A stretch of 37,998 nucleotides of DNA. It comes from a virus. The translations under genes and the position numbers were made by a program. Numbering within the stretch: position 1 is the stretch's first letter; each line of letters opens with the position of its first letter. The notes beneath the pieces are model-generated. The model had not been told where the DNA came from and made no database searches. It saw only the letters and a list, made by a program, of their open reading frames with translations. The stretch lies in IMG/VR virus record IMGVR_UViG_3300041411_000402, positions 1-37,998 of that record; one strand, written 5' to 3'. Positions 648 to 35,788 of this stretch are shown one piece after another.

Positions 648-1712
648 CTACTCTGCTGGACCCTGTGCCGCCACTTTGTCGCCATTTTTCTTTGCCAATA
701 ACGCCAGCGGATTGCAGCGAATTGCATCCTCAAGATGATCTGGCGCGAAGTGCGCATAACGCATCGTCACCCTGATGTCGGAATGCCCGAGAATACGCTG
801 CAGCACGATGATGTTTCCCCCGGCCATCATGAAGTGGCTGGCGAAGCTGTGTCGCAGTACATGGCTCATCTGGCCTTCGGGTAATTCAATGCCGGCCAGG
901 CGAATGACCCGATAAAACTGGCGATAGCACTCTGAAAAAAAACGGCCTTCTTTGTCTTTTAATTCGTTATACAGGGCATTGTCGATGGGTACCGAGCGGT
1001 TCTTTTTGCCTTTGGTATTGATGAAGGTAATTTTGTTTGGAGATAATTGTGAGGCTTTAAGATTCGCGGCTTCACTCCACCGGCACCCGGTTGAAAGGCA
1101 GATTTTGATAATCAGCGTCAGATCAGGGTTATCGTGAACTTTGCAGGCAGCAAACAGCTTTTGTATCTGGGCTTCAGTCAACCATGCCATTTCTTTCTCT
1201 GGCTGATCAAACTCGCGTATATTTTTAAGTGGGTTGGGGTAGTTGATTTCGCCAAGCCGTTCCAGCTCATTAAAAAGAGCGCGCAGGAATGCATGTTCAC
1301 AGTTAATGGTACCCGGTGAGACCTTTAAAGATTTATCACTGGTTTTGTATCCGTTCTGTATGAGGCCCTGTAAACGCCGATCCCGATAATGTGCCCAATC
1401 CTTCGAAGTGATAGAGGCAGCAACGGGGTTTCCCATGCCATTGCAAATAATATTGAGTTTGCCGAGTCGGCCTTTTCTGTCACTTAGCGAGCAACCGTGC
1501 AGTTTGTACCATAGCTCGATAAGTTCGTTAAGCTTGCGGTTATCCTCTTTCTCAGCCAGCCAGGGTTTAGCCTTCATTTCGTCCTGAGTGTATTGCTCAA
1601 AGGCAATGGCTTCAGCTCGGGTCCTGAACTGTCGTCTCACTCGTTTACCATCCCTTCCATTGAGATAGCACTCGCAGAGCCACTTACCTGTATTCAATTT
1701 CCTTATTGCCAT
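648..1712 (-). CDS. int: P2-type tyrosine integrase
   Basis: 354-aa tyrosine recombinase that should catalyse attP x attB recombination at sdsR. The N-terminal Arm-binding/SAM-like part begins MAIRKLNTGKW, as in P2 Int. The catalytic residues are visible: R211 (TGCRWSEAA), H284-x-x-R287 (SHVLRHSF), H310 (LGHS) and nucleophile Y319 (MRYAHF). I chose the ATG at 1712 because it matches the P2 Int N-terminus and has an AAGGGGG Shine-Dalgarno. The longer reading frame to 1787 would run through the promoter. The gene points toward attL and is separated from ogr by a terminator. A LexA-box-containing promoter lies directly upstream. Orientation relative to attP is reversed compared with P2. Confidence 0.95.
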   Translation of the reverse strand: MAIRKLNTGKWLCECYLNGRDGKRVRRQFRTRAEAIAFEQYTQDEMKAKPWLAEKEDNRKLNELIELWYKLHGCSLSDRKGRLGKLNIICNGMGNPVAASITSKDWAHYRDRRLQGLIQNGYKTSDKSLKVSPGTINCEHAFLRALFNELERLGEINYPNPLKNIREFDQPEKEMAWLTEAQIQKLFAACKVHDNPDLTLIIKICLSTGCRWSEAANLKASQLSPNKITFINTKGKKNRSVPIDNALYNELKDKEGRFFSECYRQFYRVIRLAGIELPEGQMSHVLRHSFASHFMMAGGNIIVLQRILGHSDIRVTMRYAHFAPDHLEDAIRCNPLALLAKKNGDKVAAQGPAE

Positions 1713-1737
1713 GCAGCCCCCTTGATAAAAGGGGATT

Positions 1738-1766
1738 AAATTACTGTATATAAAAACAGTATTCAA
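1738..1766 (-). promoter_or_regulatory. int promoter with near-consensus LexA (SOS) box
   Basis: On the minus strand TTGAAT (1761-1766) and TAATTT (1738-1743) are separated by 17 bases, giving a plausible sigma-70 promoter. The spacer is almost entirely a LexA box, TACTGTATATAAAAACAGTA read on the plus strand (1742-1761): CTG-N10-CAG with an AT-rich centre and the flanking TA of the E. coli consensus. Only int is immediately downstream (start 1712), so int is predicted to be repressed by LexA and induced by DNA damage. Confidence 0.75.
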
Positions 1767-24968: not shown

Positions 24969-26552
24969 CTAACCCTTGAAGAAGTTAATAGTTATCACTC
25001 CTTCACTACTATAACTATCAACGATTGAATCAATAGAGTCTTTTATCTGCTGTGTGATATTTTCTCCAGAAGGGCAGTCAATTAACTCTTCAATAGATAC
25101 ATTAGGTTTTCCAATTGCATGCCAACCATCAAGTAAATTGGCCTGCCCCTTGACAGATATAATCATATAGATTGTAAGGTTGCCCAGTTTTGAAGATAAA
25201 ACCATTATGCAAACCACTTCGCCTTCAATTTTTTTGGCGGATTCTTCTTGATCTATATGGAATCTCATAATGTCATAAGGCTGTTTATTTGAACTAAGCA
25301 AGGGCTCGATAGATTGAAGCGACTCTTGGCTATTTCTTAGTTCATCAAAAGACATTTGCACTTGTGATTCAATATTTAAATTCCCAGCTAGTTCTGAGGC
25401 AATGACAATTAATTTCTCAAGTGACTCTAAATGTTTAATGTACTTTGATTCTGAACTCTCCTCAATGACCTTGTCGCTAATCATAACAAGAGATTTTTTG
25501 AATTTTTCGGAAAAAATCTTTATTTCCATCTGGCTTTCTTGTGAGGTGATCCATTTTCTAAAAATTATTGCGTCTCTCAGCTCAAAAAGACTAAGTCTCA
25601 CACCGTCGTCAATGAACTTATAATGTGAATTGCCAGTTAACGCAACTAACATATCGAAACTCTTAGTTTTAACTCTGAACTTAGCCATCTGCTTAGGAGC
25701 CACGGCTGAAACCTGTGAGAAAAACAACTCGCATTCAAATCTTAAGCGTTTTTTACTTTTAAGGTGTGTGAAAGTTATGTTTCCTTTATCAGTGCTTTGT
25801 TTAACATCAAAGGAAATAAATGCCTCAGGTGAACGAAGGTCTGCGTCTTCTGATAAGATTTCAAAGCGAGTATCATAAGTCATGACATCGGTAACTTTAA
25901 TTTTATCAATCCATCCCAGAGATGCACTAACAACATCATTTTCAGGGCTAAGAGTGCTAGCTTTAAATTTCATTTGCCCCCAGCTTTTCTCGTAGCCTAA
26001 CGTTTTTAATTGATGTTGTTTTTCTTTAACATATTCATTCATTCCTTTTGGGATGTGGCTATCAATGGCTTTAATAAAAACATCGCCTGTCAGATGACTT
26101 AATTTATTTGATTCATCATATTTTATTGTCAAGGTTTTCTTATTAAAATTCTTTCTGGCCTTGTTCAAGCTATTTTCTCTTGCACTTTTAAGGACATCAA
26201 ATATGATGTCCTTGCTAATATGAACAAGGAAAACATCATCTGGTTCTGATTTGTTGTTATACTCTAAGAATAATATAAAGCTTGGTAATGGTGTGTTACA
26301 CAGTCGCATAAGATTTGACAGTGTTATTGCAAGTTTTCTTTTTCTATGATCTGTAGCTTTGATTTGTATTTTGAACTCTTTTGATGCGGGCGCTTTATCA
26401 GCTAAAACTACTTCGTCATATTCGTGTGGGTACTCCACAATATAATCCCACCCTGTACTATCCTCAATGCTTCCATTGCATGTTAAACCCATCGTAGCAC
26501 ATAAATTATTGAAAAATGTTTCTCCCATTCGACCCAAGTTTCTTTTAATCAC
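24969..26552 (-). CDS. DUF4365-like PD-(D/E)XK nuclease-domain protein (cargo)
   Basis: 527 aa, AT-rich. The N-terminal about 150 residues look like a DUF4365/PD-(D/E)XK nuclease fold: E11 in GRMGE, D36 in TGWDY, and Q63-x-K65 in FKIQIKAT, with a following basic helix. The remaining about 370 residues are unrecognised; they are beta-rich in the middle and helical near 370-430. The start is a GTG at 26552 with GAGGG 5 bases upstream; a possible -10 TATACT lies at 26569-26574. The gene sits between cos and Q, convergent with Q, at the extreme left of the virion map. An abortive or restriction-type antiphage role is inferred from the nuclease domain and position. Confidence 0.85.
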   Translation of the reverse strand: MIKRNLGRMGETFFNNLCATMGLTCNGSIEDSTGWDYIVEYPHEYDEVVLADKAPASKEFKIQIKATDHRKRKLAITLSNLMRLCNTPLPSFILFLEYNNKSEPDDVFLVHISKDIIFDVLKSARENSLNKARKNFNKKTLTIKYDESNKLSHLTGDVFIKAIDSHIPKGMNEYVKEKQHQLKTLGYEKSWGQMKFKASTLSPENDVVSASLGWIDKIKVTDVMTYDTRFEILSEDADLRSPEAFISFDVKQSTDKGNITFTHLKSKKRLRFECELFFSQVSAVAPKQMAKFRVKTKSFDMLVALTGNSHYKFIDDGVRLSLFELRDAIIFRKWITSQESQMEIKIFSEKFKKSLVMISDKVIEESSESKYIKHLESLEKLIVIASELAGNLNIESQVQMSFDELRNSQESLQSIEPLLSSNKQPYDIMRFHIDQEESAKKIEGEVVCIMVLSSKLGNLTIYMIISVKGQANLLDGWHAIGKPNVSIEELIDCPSGENITQQIKDSIDSIVDSYSSEGVITINFFKG

Positions 26553-26720
26553 GGTACCCTCATTAATAAGTATAAAGATTAAGAACTAATCGGTTGATCG
26601 TTGCGGAAAGTGAAATCTAACATGGGTATTATGAAAATGTTACTCCTCCGCTATGAGATTACTAACTTTCTCAGCCTAGATCCAAGCAATTGGTCTGCTC
26701 ATCTTAACCTCTTGCGCGCA

Positions 26721-26739
26721 ATGCTATCCCCGCCACGCC
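26721..26739 (-). other. cos site (P2/186-type cohesive end)
   Basis: The reverse strand reads GGCGTGGCGGGGATAGCAT. P2 has GGCGAGGCGGGGAAAGCAC and 186 has GGCGTGGCGGGGAAAGCAT (from memory), so it differs from 186 at one base. The following TGCGCGC is also shared with P2. It is the 19-nt cohesive end cut by terminase M/P. Its position puts the DUF4365 gene at the left end and the gpA/59-aa ORF at the right end of the packaged genome. Confidence 0.85.
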
Positions 26740-26750
26740 TGCCCGCTTTA

Positions 26751-26870
26751 TGCATCGCTTTTCATGCAGGTGCATGTGTTACCTCTAAACGCGCCAGCAC
26801 CGGCCTCACACACGCTTAGCGATCCAATTTGGATCATGCGGATTCATGCAAGCAAATGCACTTTGATGCA
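26751..26870. repeat. TGCA motif cluster beside cos, partly 10-bp phased
   Basis: TGCA occurs at 26751, 26765, 26771, 26847, 26857 and 26867. The last three are ATGCA units spaced exactly 10 bp apart. A perfect palindrome GATCCAA-T-TTGGATC lies between the groups at 26821-26835. Helically phased motifs next to cos may be terminase small-subunit or host-factor sites; this is inference. Confidence 0.5.
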
Positions 26871-26875
26871 GAAGC

Positions 26876-26898
26876 AAAAAGCCACCTGAAAGGTGGCT
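26876..26898 (-). terminator. Rho-independent terminator of the right-end transcript
   Basis: On the minus strand AGCCACC-TTTCA-GGTGGCT is followed by TTTT (26876-26880 read in reverse). It lies 28 bases after the 59-aa ORF and before cos. Confidence 0.85.
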
Positions 26899-26925
26899 AG
26901 TGAACGGTAAGGAAGAGGCAATTAA

Positions 26926-27105
26926 TCATTCAGCCTGGCGGTATATGGCAGCTTCGAAAACAGATGTGTCGATTGTCCCTGCCAGGTCGCTGATCATCGA
27001 CAGTGCCATTTTTAACTCATCTTCTTTGCAGTGTGCGATCAGTGATACGTCAGCAATGAACTGGATGCGTGCAACCGTCTCGCTTAGATTATCTATTTCT
27101 ATCAA
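26926..27105 (-). CDS. 59-aa protein in the 186 tum position, LexA-controlled
   Basis: Open frame from a TTG (27105) preceded at 8 bases by GGAG, with no ATG available in frame upstream. It encodes IEIDNLSETVARIQFIADVS, continues with IAHCKEDELKMALSMIS and ends FEAAIYRQAE. It is predicted all-helical and acidic, with no DinI likeness. It lies between a LexA-box promoter and a terminator, right of gpA and just before cos, where 186 encodes the LexA-regulated antirepressor Tum. A functional counterpart of Tum is a reasonable hypothesis; homology is not evident. Confidence 0.7.
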   Translation of the reverse strand: MIEIDNLSETVARIQFIADVSLIAHCKEDELKMALSMISDLAGTIDTSVFEAAIYRQAE

Positions 27106-27132
27106 ATGATTAACTCCTTCTAGTCAAAAAAA

Positions 27133-27152
27133 TACTGTATGTATAAGCAGTA
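27133..27152 (-). promoter_or_regulatory. LexA (SOS) box upstream of the 59-aa ORF
   Basis: TACTGTATGTATAAGCAGTA (plus strand) has the CTG-N10-CAG LexA core with flanking TA. On the minus strand TATACA, a good -10, lies inside the box, with a weak TTCCAA -35 17 bases upstream. This resembles the p95 promoter layout of phage 186. Confidence 0.75.
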
Positions 27153-27212
27153 TCATGGCGTTTTGGAATCGTAAAGAATCGTGCGGCTCAGATTAGTCCG
27201 ACTGCCGTTTTA

Positions 27213-29441
27213 TTAATCAGGCACAGGTATGCCGCTTTTTTTCGCAAGAGCATTAAATCTTTTTAAGGGAGTAGGATTCTTGTTCCGTCTATGGAACAGA
27301 TAGCCGCTTGTACCGCTCCAGTAAGAAAGCTCCCCAACCTTGATTGTATAGCCTTTCATCATGCGCACAGCTTCGCCGTCGGACAGTGTTAACCTGAAGA
27401 TCTCGAAGAAACTCTTTTTCAACGCCTCCCGTTCTTTGCAATGACTAACTTCAGGTGGGTATTTGTCCGGCTCAGGTTGCTCCTGCGCTGGCTTTTCTCT
27501 TAATCGCTTAATAATCCTTCTTCGCTCGGCGCGAGTAGGGGGCTTTGTGAAATCGATAGCTGCTTCAGAGCCTGTTGGCTCCGTACAGTTATTGACAGAA
27601 CTCCGAGAGGACGCGGGCGCGTCCTTAATTTCAAAACCCAAATCAACGGCACGTTTCGGGACAATCTTCCATTGCATCATACGGGTTAAAATTGACGTAT
27701 CGTCGCCAACTTCAGTTGCGTAAACACCCTTGATACGCACGGTTTCCTCTCCGTACTCATTCATGTCTTCGCTTGCCTGATACCAGGTGCGCACAGCCAG
27801 CTCGTCGCGGCGCACAAATGGGCCACCCTGCGCGTTAACGTATCCGGCCCAGTCTCCTGCGTCGGCGGCGTCATGCACGGCCGCAAACTCAACGCTCAGG
27901 CCGTGCGCGGTTTCGCTGTCTGCCATGCGGCGCAGTTCGCGGTAAACCGTGACCGGCGCACCGCCCACAAACTGAAATTGCCGGATGTGCCAGCGTGCCG
28001 CCCAGGCAGAAACGGCCGAGGCGATTTCTTTCAGATCTTTGCCGCTCTCGTCGTCTGTCTCGCCATCCAGCGCATAACCATCAATATTTTTGGAAATGTA
28101 TTTAGCAACGTAACCCGTCGCGCTACCTTTTGCCGGGTCGATTGCCTCGGCATGAAAACGGGCCTTACGGGCCTTGTCGGTTATCAGCTCGCTGCCGTCT
28201 TCCTGCCAGGCGTAGTCGCGCATAATCTCGCGCACGCGTTCAGCCTGCTCCGGGCACATAAACATGAGCATGTGCCAGTGCGGGGTTGCATCGTGATGAG
28301 GTTCGGCAACGCGGATCCCGAAGATGCGGATTTCTTCGCGGTGCAGCTTGGCGCGGATTTTCTGCCAGACGCTGCAGAGATAACGCTGCGTGTCGGCCGG
28401 GCTGGCACCGTTCCATTTGCGGTTGCGATGCCCGGTTTTGATTGTGGCGTGATAGCGCGCCGGGGCAGTCAGCGTATAGAACTCGCCGATAAAGCCCATT
28501 TCATTGCAGATGTTTTCGAAGCCACGAATGCGGGTCATCAGTTCGCAGCGACGTATCGCCGGGTTGGCCACACTGCCGTCGTACTTCTCGATCAGGCTGA
28601 TGCGGTTGCCTTCTTCGTCTTCCAGCTCCATTCCCTTTAAAAATTCACGAGTACGGCGCTTCTGCTCACGCCACTCAGAAACAGTCATGCTGCTGGCATA
28701 GGGGGTATGCTTTTTGCTGACGTTTGCCAGTGCGATTTGGAGATGTTCACGCCATGATGCGGCAACGCGACGCAGCCTGCCTTTCCACCACTTTTCCGTC
28801 TGCATACGCAGTATTGCCGGAGTAACTTCCTCCGGGTCAAAAAAGCGCGACGTGATCTTTTCCCATAGTGGAGGTGTCTGGCTCAGCTCGCGGGTGATGG
28901 TGGCGGCGGTCATGTAAACACGGTGCGTGTATTTGTAATCTGACTCGTCGCTGGCCTGCGCGTGTGCCTGTACCAGCTCGGCGAGAATGAAATTAGCCAC
29001 ATCCCCAGCAAGCAAATCGACGTCAGCGCGAGCCATATCTGGCAGGCGGTTAAAGCGGCGCATCAGATTGAAAAGCTGACCACCTGCTACCGCCGCATTG
29101 TCGCGCTGGGTTGCGTTACCGCCGAGTAAACTTAATGTGCTCCCCTTCATCACGCCGAGACGATATTGAGCATTAACGGTTTCAACGCGTGGCAATGTGC
29201 GCTCAACGAAAGTTTTCGCTAAGTACGCATTGGCACGATCAATACCCTGCGTTTTTTCCAGTTCACTAACCCGACGCCTTACATCAATCTGAATCAGCGC
29301 TGGCTGCTTTTCGAGTAGTTCCTGCGCATGCACTAAAGCCGCAATCATCTGACTGCGGCAGTGCATTTCCTCATTGGTGGCATAAGGGCTGGCGATAGCT
29401 TCCCGTGGAGTATTCCACGGGTAAGCAAATTCCTCATGCAT
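27213..29441 (-). CDS. A: Replication initiator gpA (HUH endonuclease)
   Basis: 742 aa (P2 gpA 761 aa). Rolling-circle initiator: FYTLTAPARYH (about 321-331), the metal-binding H388-W-H390 in HHDATPHWHM, and tandem tyrosines Y444 and Y448 in GYVAKYISKNIDGY, corresponding to the two catalytic tyrosines of P2 A. It nicks its own origin, which in P2 lies within the A gene, to start modified rolling-circle replication. The C-terminal 120 residues are basic and variable. The ATG overlaps the stop of the upstream zinc-finger gene (TGATG). Confidence 0.95.
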   Translation of the reverse strand: MHEEFAYPWNTPREAIASPYATNEEMHCRSQMIAALVHAQELLEKQPALIQIDVRRRVSELEKTQGIDRANAYLAKTFVERTLPRVETVNAQYRLGVMKGSTLSLLGGNATQRDNAAVAGGQLFNLMRRFNRLPDMARADVDLLAGDVANFILAELVQAHAQASDESDYKYTHRVYMTAATITRELSQTPPLWEKITSRFFDPEEVTPAILRMQTEKWWKGRLRRVAASWREHLQIALANVSKKHTPYASSMTVSEWREQKRRTREFLKGMELEDEEGNRISLIEKYDGSVANPAIRRCELMTRIRGFENICNEMGFIGEFYTLTAPARYHATIKTGHRNRKWNGASPADTQRYLCSVWQKIRAKLHREEIRIFGIRVAEPHHDATPHWHMLMFMCPEQAERVREIMRDYAWQEDGSELITDKARKARFHAEAIDPAKGSATGYVAKYISKNIDGYALDGETDDESGKDLKEIASAVSAWAARWHIRQFQFVGGAPVTVYRELRRMADSETAHGLSVEFAAVHDAADAGDWAGYVNAQGGPFVRRDELAVRTWYQASEDMNEYGEETVRIKGVYATEVGDDTSILTRMMQWKIVPKRAVDLGFEIKDAPASSRSSVNNCTEPTGSEAAIDFTKPPTRAERRRIIKRLREKPAQEQPEPDKYPPEVSHCKEREALKKSFFEIFRLTLSDGEAVRMMKGYTIKVGELSYWSGTSGYLFHRRNKNPTPLKRFNALAKKSGIPVPD

Positions 29442-31522: not shown

Positions 31523-32380
31523 ATGATTGAAGAGAAGGGCGGTAGCGCTCAGATTCTCGAAAGACTCATGTCTTCTTATGGAGTTAACACTCAGAAAGAT
31601 CTAGCTGCGGCTCTTGCTATACCTGCCAATAATATAAGTGGTTGGACGCAGCGTGGAAGCGTGCCGGGTAATGCTATTATCAAGTGTGCATTAGATACTG
31701 GAGCAGAGCTTCAGTGGCTGGTAACAGGTAAACTTGCAAATGCGAAATCAGCATCGTTCAATTCAAAGTATTCTGGCAGGTTACTTTATGAAGAAATAAT
31801 GGCTAATGGTGGTAAACCCGTTTTACGACGCATTTTAGACGCTTATGGTTTTACCATGCAGAAGCAGCTTTGCGACTTGCTCGACATTTCTTCAGGCACA
31901 GTTAGTACATGGATTAGAAGAAATCACTTCCCGGGTGATGTTGTTGTAACTTGTTCATTGGATACGGGTGTTTCTCTGCAATGGCTTGCAACAGGTAAAA
32001 GTGATGTAAGGCTCTCGGAGACTACAAACCATGATATGACAACGTTTCATCAATTAAAAAAGTTGAGAATTGAATCTGGTAAGCTAGTATCAGATGGCTA
32101 TTTTATAATAGATCCTTCTTTTACATCATCTCCTATTGAGGAAACTGCATTGGTTGTCAGGGGAGTGAATGCTTGGCTCGTGGATTTTTCCAATAAAAAT
32201 TTTTCAAACGGGAAGTGGATGATTGAAATTGATGGTAGTGTAGATATTTATAATGTAAAAAAGCTACCCAAAAAAAAGTTGCTCTTAGAAAATAGCGGTT
32301 ATGAATTTGACTGTGATATGGAGCTTGTAGCTCCTTTAGGAATAGTAACTAAAACAATTTTCAATCATGAAATTAGCTGA
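31523..32380 (+). CDS. cI: 186-type CI repressor with duplicated helix-turn-helix domain
   Basis: 285 aa, against about 190 for 186 CI. Residues about 9-70 and 99-160 are two copies of the phage CI-repressor HTH domain. Each contains a QK-L---L-I pattern, then ISGW/VSTW, R-S/N-x-VPG/FPG, CALDTG/CSLDTG and LQWL-TGK. The C-terminal 110 residues (FHQLKKLRIESGKLVSDGYF to GIVTKTIFNH) resemble the 186 CI oligomerisation domain. I use the ATG at 31523; the frame is open further upstream, but through the promoter region. No strong ribosome site is visible. No LexA-like Ala-Gly cleavage site or Ser/Lys dyad was recognised, so SOS relief would need an antirepressor. Confidence 0.88.
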   Translation: MIEEKGGSAQILERLMSSYGVNTQKDLAAALAIPANNISGWTQRGSVPGNAIIKCALDTGAELQWLVTGKLANAKSASFNSKYSGRLLYEEIMANGGKPVLRRILDAYGFTMQKQLCDLLDISSGTVSTWIRRNHFPGDVVVTCSLDTGVSLQWLATGKSDVRLSETTNHDMTTFHQLKKLRIESGKLVSDGYFIIDPSFTSSPIEETALVVRGVNAWLVDFSNKNFSNGKWMIEIDGSVDIYNVKKLPKKKLLLENSGYEFDCDMELVAPLGIVTKTIFNHEIS

Positions 32381-32403
32381 ATCTAAAAATCACGGATATG
32401 ATT

Positions 32404-32967
32404 ATGAATGATCAGATTGAATCTTTCCGAAATTATTTAAGAGACAACAGTGTTCAAGACACATTTAGACGCTTCATTATGCATCAAGACTGTAAGGTAA
32501 TTACTGAAGATCAAAGTTATGGCTTGAAAAATATTGTGTGCGAAAATTTCAGTGTAGGATTTGAACATGTTGTGATAGTAGGTTCATGTAAACTTGGGTT
32601 TAGCATTAAACCTGATAAAAGATTTGTACCTTTTGGTGATGAGTCAGATATAGATGTCGCTATTGTCTCCTCGGGATTATTTGAGTCTGTTTGGAAAGCT
32701 GCGATGGATTATAAATACTCATGCGCAGATTGGCCAATGAAAAGACAATTTTTCAAATATTTATCAGAAGGTTGGATAAGACCAGATAAGTTTCCCAATG
32801 ATGACGCATTTCCTTTTGGTAAGGAATGGTGGTTATTTTTTAATAAAATCACAAGTTCTGGGAGCTATGGCGATTATAAAATTGCAGCTGGTATATATTA
32901 TAATAGCTATTTCTTAGAAAAATATCAGACAACTTGTCTTGAACAATGCGCTTTGGAGTTAAAATAA
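32404..32967 (+). CDS. MNT-like nucleotidyltransferase (cargo, lysogeny operon)
   Basis: 187 aa from ATG 32404 (GGA 7 bases upstream; ATG 32398 is also possible). Nucleotidyltransferase signature: VIVG60-S61, then D82-x-D84 in GDESDIDVAIV, the GS...DxD pattern of MNT/polymerase-beta-type enzymes. The spacer between GS and DxD is long (about 20 residues, with GFSIKPDKRFVPFG). The rest is aromatic-rich and unrecognised. It lies 23 bases after cI on the same strand and shares bases with the start of the DUF262 gene, so it should be transcribed with the repressor. The substrate is unknown: it may AMPylate a protein partner, as MNT antitoxins do, or act on a nucleotide. Confidence 0.85.
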   Translation: MNDQIESFRNYLRDNSVQDTFRRFIMHQDCKVITEDQSYGLKNIVCENFSVGFEHVVIVGSCKLGFSIKPDKRFVPFGDESDIDVAIVSSGLFESVWKAAMDYKYSCADWPMKRQFFKYLSEGWIRPDKFPNDDAFPFGKEWWLFFNKITSSGSYGDYKIAAGIYYNSYFLEKYQTTCLEQCALELK

Positions 32968-33974
32968 TGGACACGTCAGCTTCTAACAGAAGGTTAAGGG
33001 TTTTATTAACAGCCATTGGTAATGGAAGTTTAGTTCCTCAACCAGAGTTTCAAAGAAGATTGGTTTGGATTAATAAAGATAAAGTTGAATTTATAAGAAC
33101 AGTTGTTGAAGGGTATCCTTTTCCTGAAATATATATAGCAGCTGGAAAATTAGACCCTAAAACAGGTATAGGAACAGAAGTTTTAGTCGATGGCCAGCAA
33201 AGAATAACAACTTTATATCAATATTTTAAAGATAATGCTGATCTGAAGCTGCCTGATGACTTGCCTAAATATTCCGATCTCAAAGAAGATAAGCAAATTG
33301 CTTTTCTGGAATATAGTGTGGTAGTTAGAGATCTTGGTGCGATGGAATTGAGTGTTATTAAAGATGTGTTTCAAAGAATCAACTCCACAAGTTATGGCCT
33401 AAATGCTATGGAGATTGATAATGCTAGATATGGTGGTGAATTTAAAAAGTTTGGGGAGAAAATTTCTACAAAAGATTTCTTTAATAGAAATAAAATTTTC
33501 ACCGCCACCGATATAAAAAGAATGAATGATGTACGTTATTGCTTAGGATTGGTTATCACAATGATGACAACCTACTTTAATCGTGATAAAGAGATTGAAC
33601 AATTTCTTGAAAAATATAACGAAGCTTTTTTAGACTCTGATAAAATTGAAAGTGAATTTGATACCGTACTGAAATTTATAGATTTACTAAATTTCAACCC
33701 GTCAAGTAGATCAATGAAAAAGGCAGACTTTTATACATTATTTATTGAGATGCATCGCTTATTGATAAAAAATAAAAAGGATTTATCGCCTGTCGATGTT
33801 AGGAAAAAACTGGATGATTTTTATGAGCAAGTAGACTTTGTGGCAGAGGGAAATTATAAAGGTAGTGATGATAGAGCAAACGTTTATTACAAAGCAGCTT
33901 TACAAGCAAGCAATGATAGGGCCAACAGGATATTAAGGGGTAAAATAATTTCTTCACTCTTTGAATCAACCTGA
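32967..33974 (+). CDS. DUF262 (ParB/Srx-like) protein (cargo, lysogeny operon)
   Basis: 335 aa. The start shares one base with the stop of the nucleotidyltransferase gene (TAATG), with GGAG 8 bases upstream. N-terminal DUF262 motifs: PEFQRRLVW (26-34), GYPFPEIYI (49-57) and the catalytic-type D75-GQQR-79 followed by ITTLYQYF; FQRINSTSYGLNAMEI is also typical. This is the NTPase/nuclease-like domain seen in GmrS/GmrSD, SspE and BrxU. The usual C-terminal DUF1524 HNH nuclease is absent; the last 150 residues are helical and unrecognised. The tight coupling suggests a two-protein system made in the lysogen. Confidence 0.88.
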   Translation: MDTSASNRRLRVLLTAIGNGSLVPQPEFQRRLVWINKDKVEFIRTVVEGYPFPEIYIAAGKLDPKTGIGTEVLVDGQQRITTLYQYFKDNADLKLPDDLPKYSDLKEDKQIAFLEYSVVVRDLGAMELSVIKDVFQRINSTSYGLNAMEIDNARYGGEFKKFGEKISTKDFFNRNKIFTATDIKRMNDVRYCLGLVITMMTTYFNRDKEIEQFLEKYNEAFLDSDKIESEFDTVLKFIDLLNFNPSSRSMKKADFYTLFIEMHRLLIKNKKDLSPVDVRKKLDDFYEQVDFVAEGNYKGSDDRANVYYKAALQASNDRANRILRGKIISSLFEST

Positions 33975-34428: not shown

Positions 34429-34655
34429 GTCTTCATGACAAACATGCCGTTATTGATTTCGATAATGCAGACACAGTGACGTTAATCATTCATCCGATGT
34501 CCACTGAGTGAAGGTATGCTAGGGGACACAGCTCGTGCCGAGGGATTCACGTATTTATAGTTCTCTGACGGACGGATAGGCAAATTTCGGAGAGTGATCG
34601 TTTTATCTTAGTGTGGCACTATAATGCAGCCATTATCATGAACGAGGGATTGAGA

Positions 34656-35330
34656 ATGATATCAGGAACAGCAGCAAAACAGGAACCTGGACGTTACTAC
34701 ACATTTGAGTCGAGATTGCCTCAGGGCGTTTTTTTTGAGATTCGCCCCAGCCATTTGCCAGGAAATGCAAAGCCCGTAACAGATGAAACCAGCGGTATGT
34801 GTATCGGTTACTCGGTCGCACAGGCTCCGGGTTTGTGGCAGATTTATGACGTTCAGGGGCATTTTGTCAGGCTGGAAGAAGCGCCACTTGAAACACCCCT
34901 GATTGATCCCACGGATATTGCCCTGTTTGGCCTAGGTATTTTTCGTATCCTTCGTACAGGGCGGGTGCTGTTTGAATCAGGGGCACGTGCCGCTGTTTAT
35001 GCGAAGCTCAGTCAATCCACTATATCCTTTCTGCGCAGCAGACTGAAACTAGGGCTGCATGCACGTAACCTTAAAATGACTGAGGCTGCTGCAAAACACA
35101 TGTATGAACCGGGTCGCTATGTCCCTCTGCAAATTCAGGAGCGAGCCATTCGATATGGCAAGAGAATGGCAGATCCCCGTAAAGGTGATGGCATGTTCAG
35201 ATATGAAACCAGAATGTTCAAGCTACGCTTTAATAAGCAAACACTGCAGTATGAGTACAAAGAATACACCCTCGAAGTTGTGGTGCGTGAATCAGACTGG
35301 ACGATATCGCATTTCAAATATATGGATTAA
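34656..35330 (+). CDS. Orphan polymorphic-toxin-like protein
   Basis: 224 aa from ATG 34656 (GAGGGA 6 bases upstream). Residues about 80-135 (LIDPTDIALFGLGIFRILRTGR to RSRLKLG) resemble the linker that precedes toxin domains in polymorphic toxins. Residues 140-224 look like a small nuclease domain: H148, GRYVP (153-157), AIRYGKRMADP, YTLEVVVRESDWTISHF with T216/H219. A RNase of the BECR type is my best guess. No secretion signal, PAAR, Rhs repeats or two-partner domain is present, so delivery is unknown (possibly a type VI cargo). A matching immunity gene follows 17 bases later. Confidence 0.7.
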   Translation: MISGTAAKQEPGRYYTFESRLPQGVFFEIRPSHLPGNAKPVTDETSGMCIGYSVAQAPGLWQIYDVQGHFVRLEEAPLETPLIDPTDIALFGLGIFRILRTGRVLFESGARAAVYAKLSQSTISFLRSRLKLGLHARNLKMTEAAAKHMYEPGRYVPLQIQERAIRYGKRMADPRKGDGMFRYETRMFKLRFNKQTLQYEYKEYTLEVVVRESDWTISHFKYMD

Positions 35331-35347
35331 CTGAAAGGAAGGCTTTT

Positions 35348-35788
35348 ATGTTTGATTTTCGCAATGAGGATTTCACCTTCGTGATTTCTCCTTTTGAAAG
35401 GATACCCGACAATGAAGCAGATCCTGCTGGGCACTTATGGGATTGGATCCAGTCATGGATAGAATTCTCCGTAAGCGGCGTGAAAGTACAGTTTCAGACT
35501 GAATTTACTGTAGGTGAGCTAAGAATTTTAAAGGGTGAGTTTGCCGCGAATTATCAGGCAATAATCGCACAGCGCGAATTAAAACCTTTCATTTTTCGCA
35601 GCGAGCGTGGTCAGCTCAACATGGTTATCAGGAAAGTGACTGGTAAAGATGGTGTAATAGTAGAGTTTGATATTCGCCCGGAATCCCATGCCGACAGCGT
35701 TCAGGTTAAAGGCAGCTTTGGCCTTGATGAAAGCTATTTCCCCGATATTCTGAAGAGGCTGGATGAAATGATTCAATGGCCTAATTAA
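35348..35788 (+). CDS. WapI-type immunity protein
   Basis: 146 aa. The start MFDFRNEDFTFVISPFERIP and the alternating beta-strand pattern (VKVQFQTEFTVGELRILKGEF, ending in FPDILKRLDEMI) resemble the WapI family of immunity proteins that neutralise contact-dependent toxins. A strong AAGGAAGG ribosome site and the 17-base distance from the toxin gene support a toxin-immunity pair. Cytoplasmic, no signal peptide. Confidence 0.7.
   Translation: MFDFRNEDFTFVISPFERIPDNEADPAGHLWDWIQSWIEFSVSGVKVQFQTEFTVGELRILKGEFAANYQAIIAQRELKPFIFRSERGQLNMVIRKVTGKDGVIVEFDIRPESHADSVQVKGSFGLDESYFPDILKRLDEMIQWPN

Follow-up and report, generated by a model that had tools for sequence, protein, structure and literature searches.

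A stand-alone homologue of the antirepressor half of coliphage 186 Tum as a probable SOS-controlled antagonist of a CI repressor

The viral DNA analysed here (IMG/VR record IMGVR_UViG_3300041411_000402, positions 1 to 37,998; 37,998 nucleotides, hereafter the window) carries, directly after the replication gene gpA and before the inferred cos region, a small gene, tumA, that very probably represents the antirepressor component of the Tum system known from 186 and PSP3, set up as a free-standing single-gene SOS unit acting on a non-cleavable CI. The homology of its product, the layout of promoter and operator, the terminator, the selection acting on the frame and the co-occurrence with one type of CI are all observed in the window and its relatives. 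Read on the minus strand from gpA towards cos, the locus consists of a putative −35 element, a LexA box, a ribosome site, a 59-codon ORF and a terminator (Table 1), and tumA is a monocistronic unit that ends at its own terminator and lacks dinI. The original prediction of a LexA box, ribosome site, acidic 59-codon ORF and terminator between gpA and cos held for every element, and so did its placing of the gene at the position of 186 tum. All these elements are conserved in about 80 related Pantoea/Erwinia prophages, and the LexA box lies over the −10 as in p95 of 186.

Table 1. Positions of the tumA locus and of associated features in the window (position 1 is the first letter of the stretch).
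Feature	Position	Strand	Remarks
tumA	26926..27105	-	59 codons from TTG 27103-27105; free-standing homologue of the 186 Tum N-terminal half (antirepressor part); acidic product
tumA codon 2	27100..27102	-	ATA here; ATG, the family start codon, in 81/83 relatives
Ribosome-binding site AAGGAG	27114..27119	-	conserved in relatives
LexA box TACTGCTTATACATACAGTA (plus strand TACTGTATGTATAAGCAGTA)	27133..27152	-	three deviations from the 20-bp consensus
First hexamer of the tumA LexA box	27147-27152	-	equivalent of the -10 in 186 p95
Putative -35 TTTACG	27170..27175	-	17 bp upstream of the first box hexamer; 77 of 83 loci have the exact sequence
Intrinsic terminator	26880..26898	-	stem, then T run; directly 3' of tumA
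CI repressor	31523..32380	+	285 aa from ATG 31523; tandem Phage_CI_repr HTH pair with Phage_CI_C; presumed TumA target
gpA replication protein	27213..29441	-	upstream neighbour of tumA
Probable cos region	26714..26776	.	stretch common to many P2-like phages; cos assignment inferred
First LexA box	1742..1761	-	26 bp upstream of the int ATG
int (integrase)	648-1715	-	downstream of the first LexA box

To judge by its conservation, the frame is a real gene, since its relatives, 80 of them on viral contigs and four in genomes of Pantoea/Erwinia, keep the same frame and a near-identical length, and the dN/dS of 0.076 across 55 distinct alleles indicates purifying selection. A chance ORF was rejected on the same grounds (over 80 relatives and the dN/dS value), and an ORF on the opposite strand, 26900-27109(+), was set aside, the constraint being carried by the minus frame. 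Of 82 relatives, 81 retain the terminator, and in each of the 83 loci examined a LexA box precedes codon 1 by 25-28 bp, although it has decayed in two. In these two loci (L059 and L091), the box reads TTCTGCTCATGCAAACAGTA while the ORF is intact, which makes them natural candidates for non-inducible prophages.

The tumA box of the window differs from the 20-bp LexA consensus at 3 positions, and no such site arose in 100 shuffles. As had been predicted, it is the second LexA box of the window, the only other such site being the one before the integrase gene, with 2 mismatches.

Profile and tblastn searches place the ORF on the Tum line. The window ORF matches the protein family phrog_1993 (E 1.3e-20), and the same profile matches residues 1-61 of the 146-aa 186 Tum (1e-22) and the TumA protein of phage PSP3 (NP_958094; 2.7e-32). 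A tblastn comparison also relates the window ORF to PSP3 TumA (44% identity, E 7e-6), which its record annotates as 'similar to 5' end 186 tum; UV induction of prophage' and follows with tumB, the DinI half. These matches indicate that the window ORF corresponds to the antirepressor portion of Tum and lacks the DinI portion. It thus belongs to an already known kind of antirepressor and not to the new type that had been proposed, because a single family spans the window ORF, 186 Tum 1-61 and PSP3 TumA. For an antirepressor unrelated to Tum one could cite the lack of any match when the ORF was scanned against Pfam and NCBIfam, the missing DinI part and a direct identity of just 20% to the N-terminal half of 186 Tum, a figure that also counts against our own reading. 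The phrog_1993 matches and the PSP3 tblastn match refute non-relatedness, and the locus and promoter plan are those of 186 tum; we regard such an origin as extremely unlikely. A PADLOC search of the ORF gave no match. An AlphaFold2 model of the protein contains three helices (pLDDT 73, pTM 0.54), and a PDB fold search with this model returned no match with E below 4; the structure says no more than 'helical'.

The expectation that the ORF has no DinI-like part was borne out, no DinI match being found in the window or in the 78 close relatives searched. This arrangement is not new: among 83 PSP3-type tumA loci, all with a LexA box just upstream, DinI follows closely in 49, and 34 (about 40%) have no recognisable dinI. 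The antirepressor half thus commonly stands without DinI, and phrog_1993, a widespread, un-annotated family of small ORFs listed as of 'unknown function', can now be placed on the Tum antirepressor line.

Among named systems, PSP3 TumA is the closest counterpart, being likewise a small family member encoded on its own after gpA, with a LexA box upstream, and 41-44% identical; in PSP3, however, the DinI-like tumB lies directly downstream, whereas in the window a terminator follows. Coliphage 186 shares the LexA box overlapping the −10 and a non-cleavable CI as target, but its Tum domain is fused to a DinI-like half, while the window TumA stands alone. Fels-2 also carries a small ORF after gpA, STM2728, whose family (phrog_698) weakly matches the window ORF; it is more distant, and a dinI homologue (the DinI-like STM2726.1) lies downstream. 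Lemire et al. (2011; PMC3121763) had already discussed that tum is split in PSP3 and Fels-2. The antirepressors GfoA, GftA and FsoA of the Gifsy phages and Fels-1 inactivate repressors that are not cleaved (PMC3121763) and, like the window TumA, are small and LexA-controlled, but they belong to lambdoid phages and act on another repressor type. We saw no PHROG link between the window ORF and the Gifsy antirepressors; the ORF after dinI in Gifsy-2, taken as GftA from gene order, matched phrog_4847 only.

How tumA may act can be proposed by analogy. 186 Tum binds CI and blocks its operator binding (PMC3121763), and it is described as an anti-CI factor under the LexA-regulated promoter p95 (PMC7708051). 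In PSP3, the upstream tum half carries the antirepressor activity, according to a personal communication available second-hand (PMC3121763, where Christie is cited through Bunny et al. 2002), which makes this precedent a weaker prop of our reading. Following these two phages, LexA bound to the box overlapping the −10 would keep tumA off in the lysogen; upon DNA damage, cleavage of LexA would allow tumA to be transcribed up to its own terminator; TumA, a predicted three-helix protein of about 59 residues, would then bind the non-cleavable CI and prevent it from binding its operators; and with CI off the operators, the early promoter would be released and the early lytic operon would start.

The CI of the window has the properties that such a partner would need. 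The domain search found no peptidase S24 match in it, and its sequence has neither an Ala-Gly nor a Cys-Gly dipeptide; self-cleavage of the LexA type is thus not to be expected, in line with the earlier claim that it lacks an obvious RecA-cleavage site. It has two HTH domains, unlike 186 CI, which has one. Among viral contigs with a tandem-HTH CI and enough DNA after gpA, TumA and a LexA box follow gpA in 53 of 54, against TumA in none of 75 contigs with the P2 C repressor; these counts are of related phages and not of independent events, and the CI query was taken from a TumA-positive locus, both of which temper their value for our reading. Together with the homology to Tum and TumA, this pairing supports the suggestion that the gene encodes an antirepressor. 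P2 is the non-inducible prototype (PMC5322425). Only one tandem-CI contig, L325, has sufficient DNA after gpA and yet lacks both TumA and a LexA box.

What makes the system chiefly interesting is that related phages combine a near-identical small protein with repressors that differ greatly. TumA has a mean pairwise identity of 90%, while in 30 distinct tandem CIs the first HTH domain (HTH1) averages 62%, the second (HTH2) 85% and the C-terminal part 44%, the last falling into 21 clusters at 75% identity. The C-terminal part of the window CI is 22-35% identical to the others, and the window TumA is 74-97% identical to theirs. A co-variation test found no positive correlation between TumA identity and the identity of any CI domain. 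Four loci have a single-HTH CI (58% identical to HTH2 and 18% in the C-terminal part) beside a TumA of the same family, and two PSP3-type loci encode identical TumA proteins although one (L221) has a tandem-HTH CI and the other (L222) a CI of the 186 type. Across the 30 distinct relatives, HTH1 occurs in about five types, and the genes neighbouring cI are at least 90% identical in most loci; the cI locus is a hot spot of immunity diversification.

Were antirepressor and repressor a narrowly co-evolved pair, one would not expect to see a constant TumA next to a CI that varies. Such a pattern would be understandable for an SOS effector with some other task, such as modulating SOS, replication or excision, and the missing correlation of TumA identity with any CI domain points the same way. 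We nevertheless consider such a task quite improbable, given the strict pairing of TumA with the non-cleavable CI class, its absence with P2 C, the precedents of 186 and PSP3 (PMC3121763, PMC7708051) and the fact that the SOS-modulating DinI half is exactly the part missing here.

Within the antirepressor reading, the contact of TumA is most likely the second HTH module of CI, as judged from the alignments, because this is the only part of CI nearly as constant as TumA. The simplest view of the pattern, though a somewhat doubtful one, would see the nearly invariant TumA as a broad antirepressor that acts on many heteroimmune tandem-HTH CIs through the conserved HTH2, leaving HTH1 and the C-terminal domain free to diversify. 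Alternatively, HTH2 may be conserved for DNA binding, with the constancy of TumA arising from another cause. The HTH2 idea gives a testable proposal for the place at which TumA binds CI, and if the broad action is real, SOS triggering of one prophage could spread to heteroimmune prophages that share its host cell.

The window copy itself departs from its relatives at two otherwise constant sites. Codon 1 varies over the 83 loci (TTG in 57, CTG in 24, TTA and CTA in one each), and codon 2 is ATG in 81 of them; the family would accordingly be read from codon 2 and not from codon 1. The predicted TTG start therefore stands as a plausible candidate for the window copy, where codon 2 is ATA and TTG is left as a fallback, but it fails as the start of the family. 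The second departure is in the first hexamer of the LexA box, which is TACTGC in the window and TACTGT in 186, where the same hexamer is the annotated −10 of p95; the CTGT half-site occurs in 79 of the 83 relatives and is CTGC in the window.

The absence of the family's ATG and of the −10 T in this copy sits uneasily with a working antirepressor gene. It raises a real prospect, which we put at somewhat short of even, that this copy is a TumA relative that has become an expression-dead or strongly weakened remnant in a poorly SOS-inducible prophage, a state compatible with the family assignment. The constancy of both sites elsewhere and the coincidence of the altered hexamer with the p95 −10 favour a remnant. 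There is also a precedent in Gifsy-1 of strain D23580, in which one SNP in the −10 before dinI-gfoA abolishes detectable phage (PMC5322425), and because of it the window copy may be poorly expressed compared with its relatives. Decay is harder to reconcile with an intact protein that reaches about 95% identity with relatives, with a TTG that has a good ribosome site, with the occurrence of TACTGC in a second locus (L050) and with the retained CTG...CAG core of the LexA box. The changes in start and promoter may decide whether the window prophage is SOS-inducible.

Several other features of the window were recorded. In 70 of 80 relatives, int is preceded by a LexA box with at most 5 mismatches, suggesting that the same SOS signal may drive integrase and excision. 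The box at 1742-1761 adjoins ogr rather than cI. In 186, int is located downstream of cI, whereas the window has at that place two ORFs (32398-33974), one of 189 aa without a Pfam match and one encoding a GmrSD_N (DUF262-like) protein with a PADLOC match to NsnA (2.5e-30); these are possible defence genes. Between cos and the portal gene, a 527-aa ORF (24969-26552) with weak matches to DUF4365 and PDC-M02A is probably a cargo or defence gene, and a 27% identical protein is encoded at the same place in one relative (L084). Near the right end of the prophage, a 239-aa ORF lies ahead of a gene for a WapI-like immunity protein (34611-35788), and the two form a possible effector-immunity pair.
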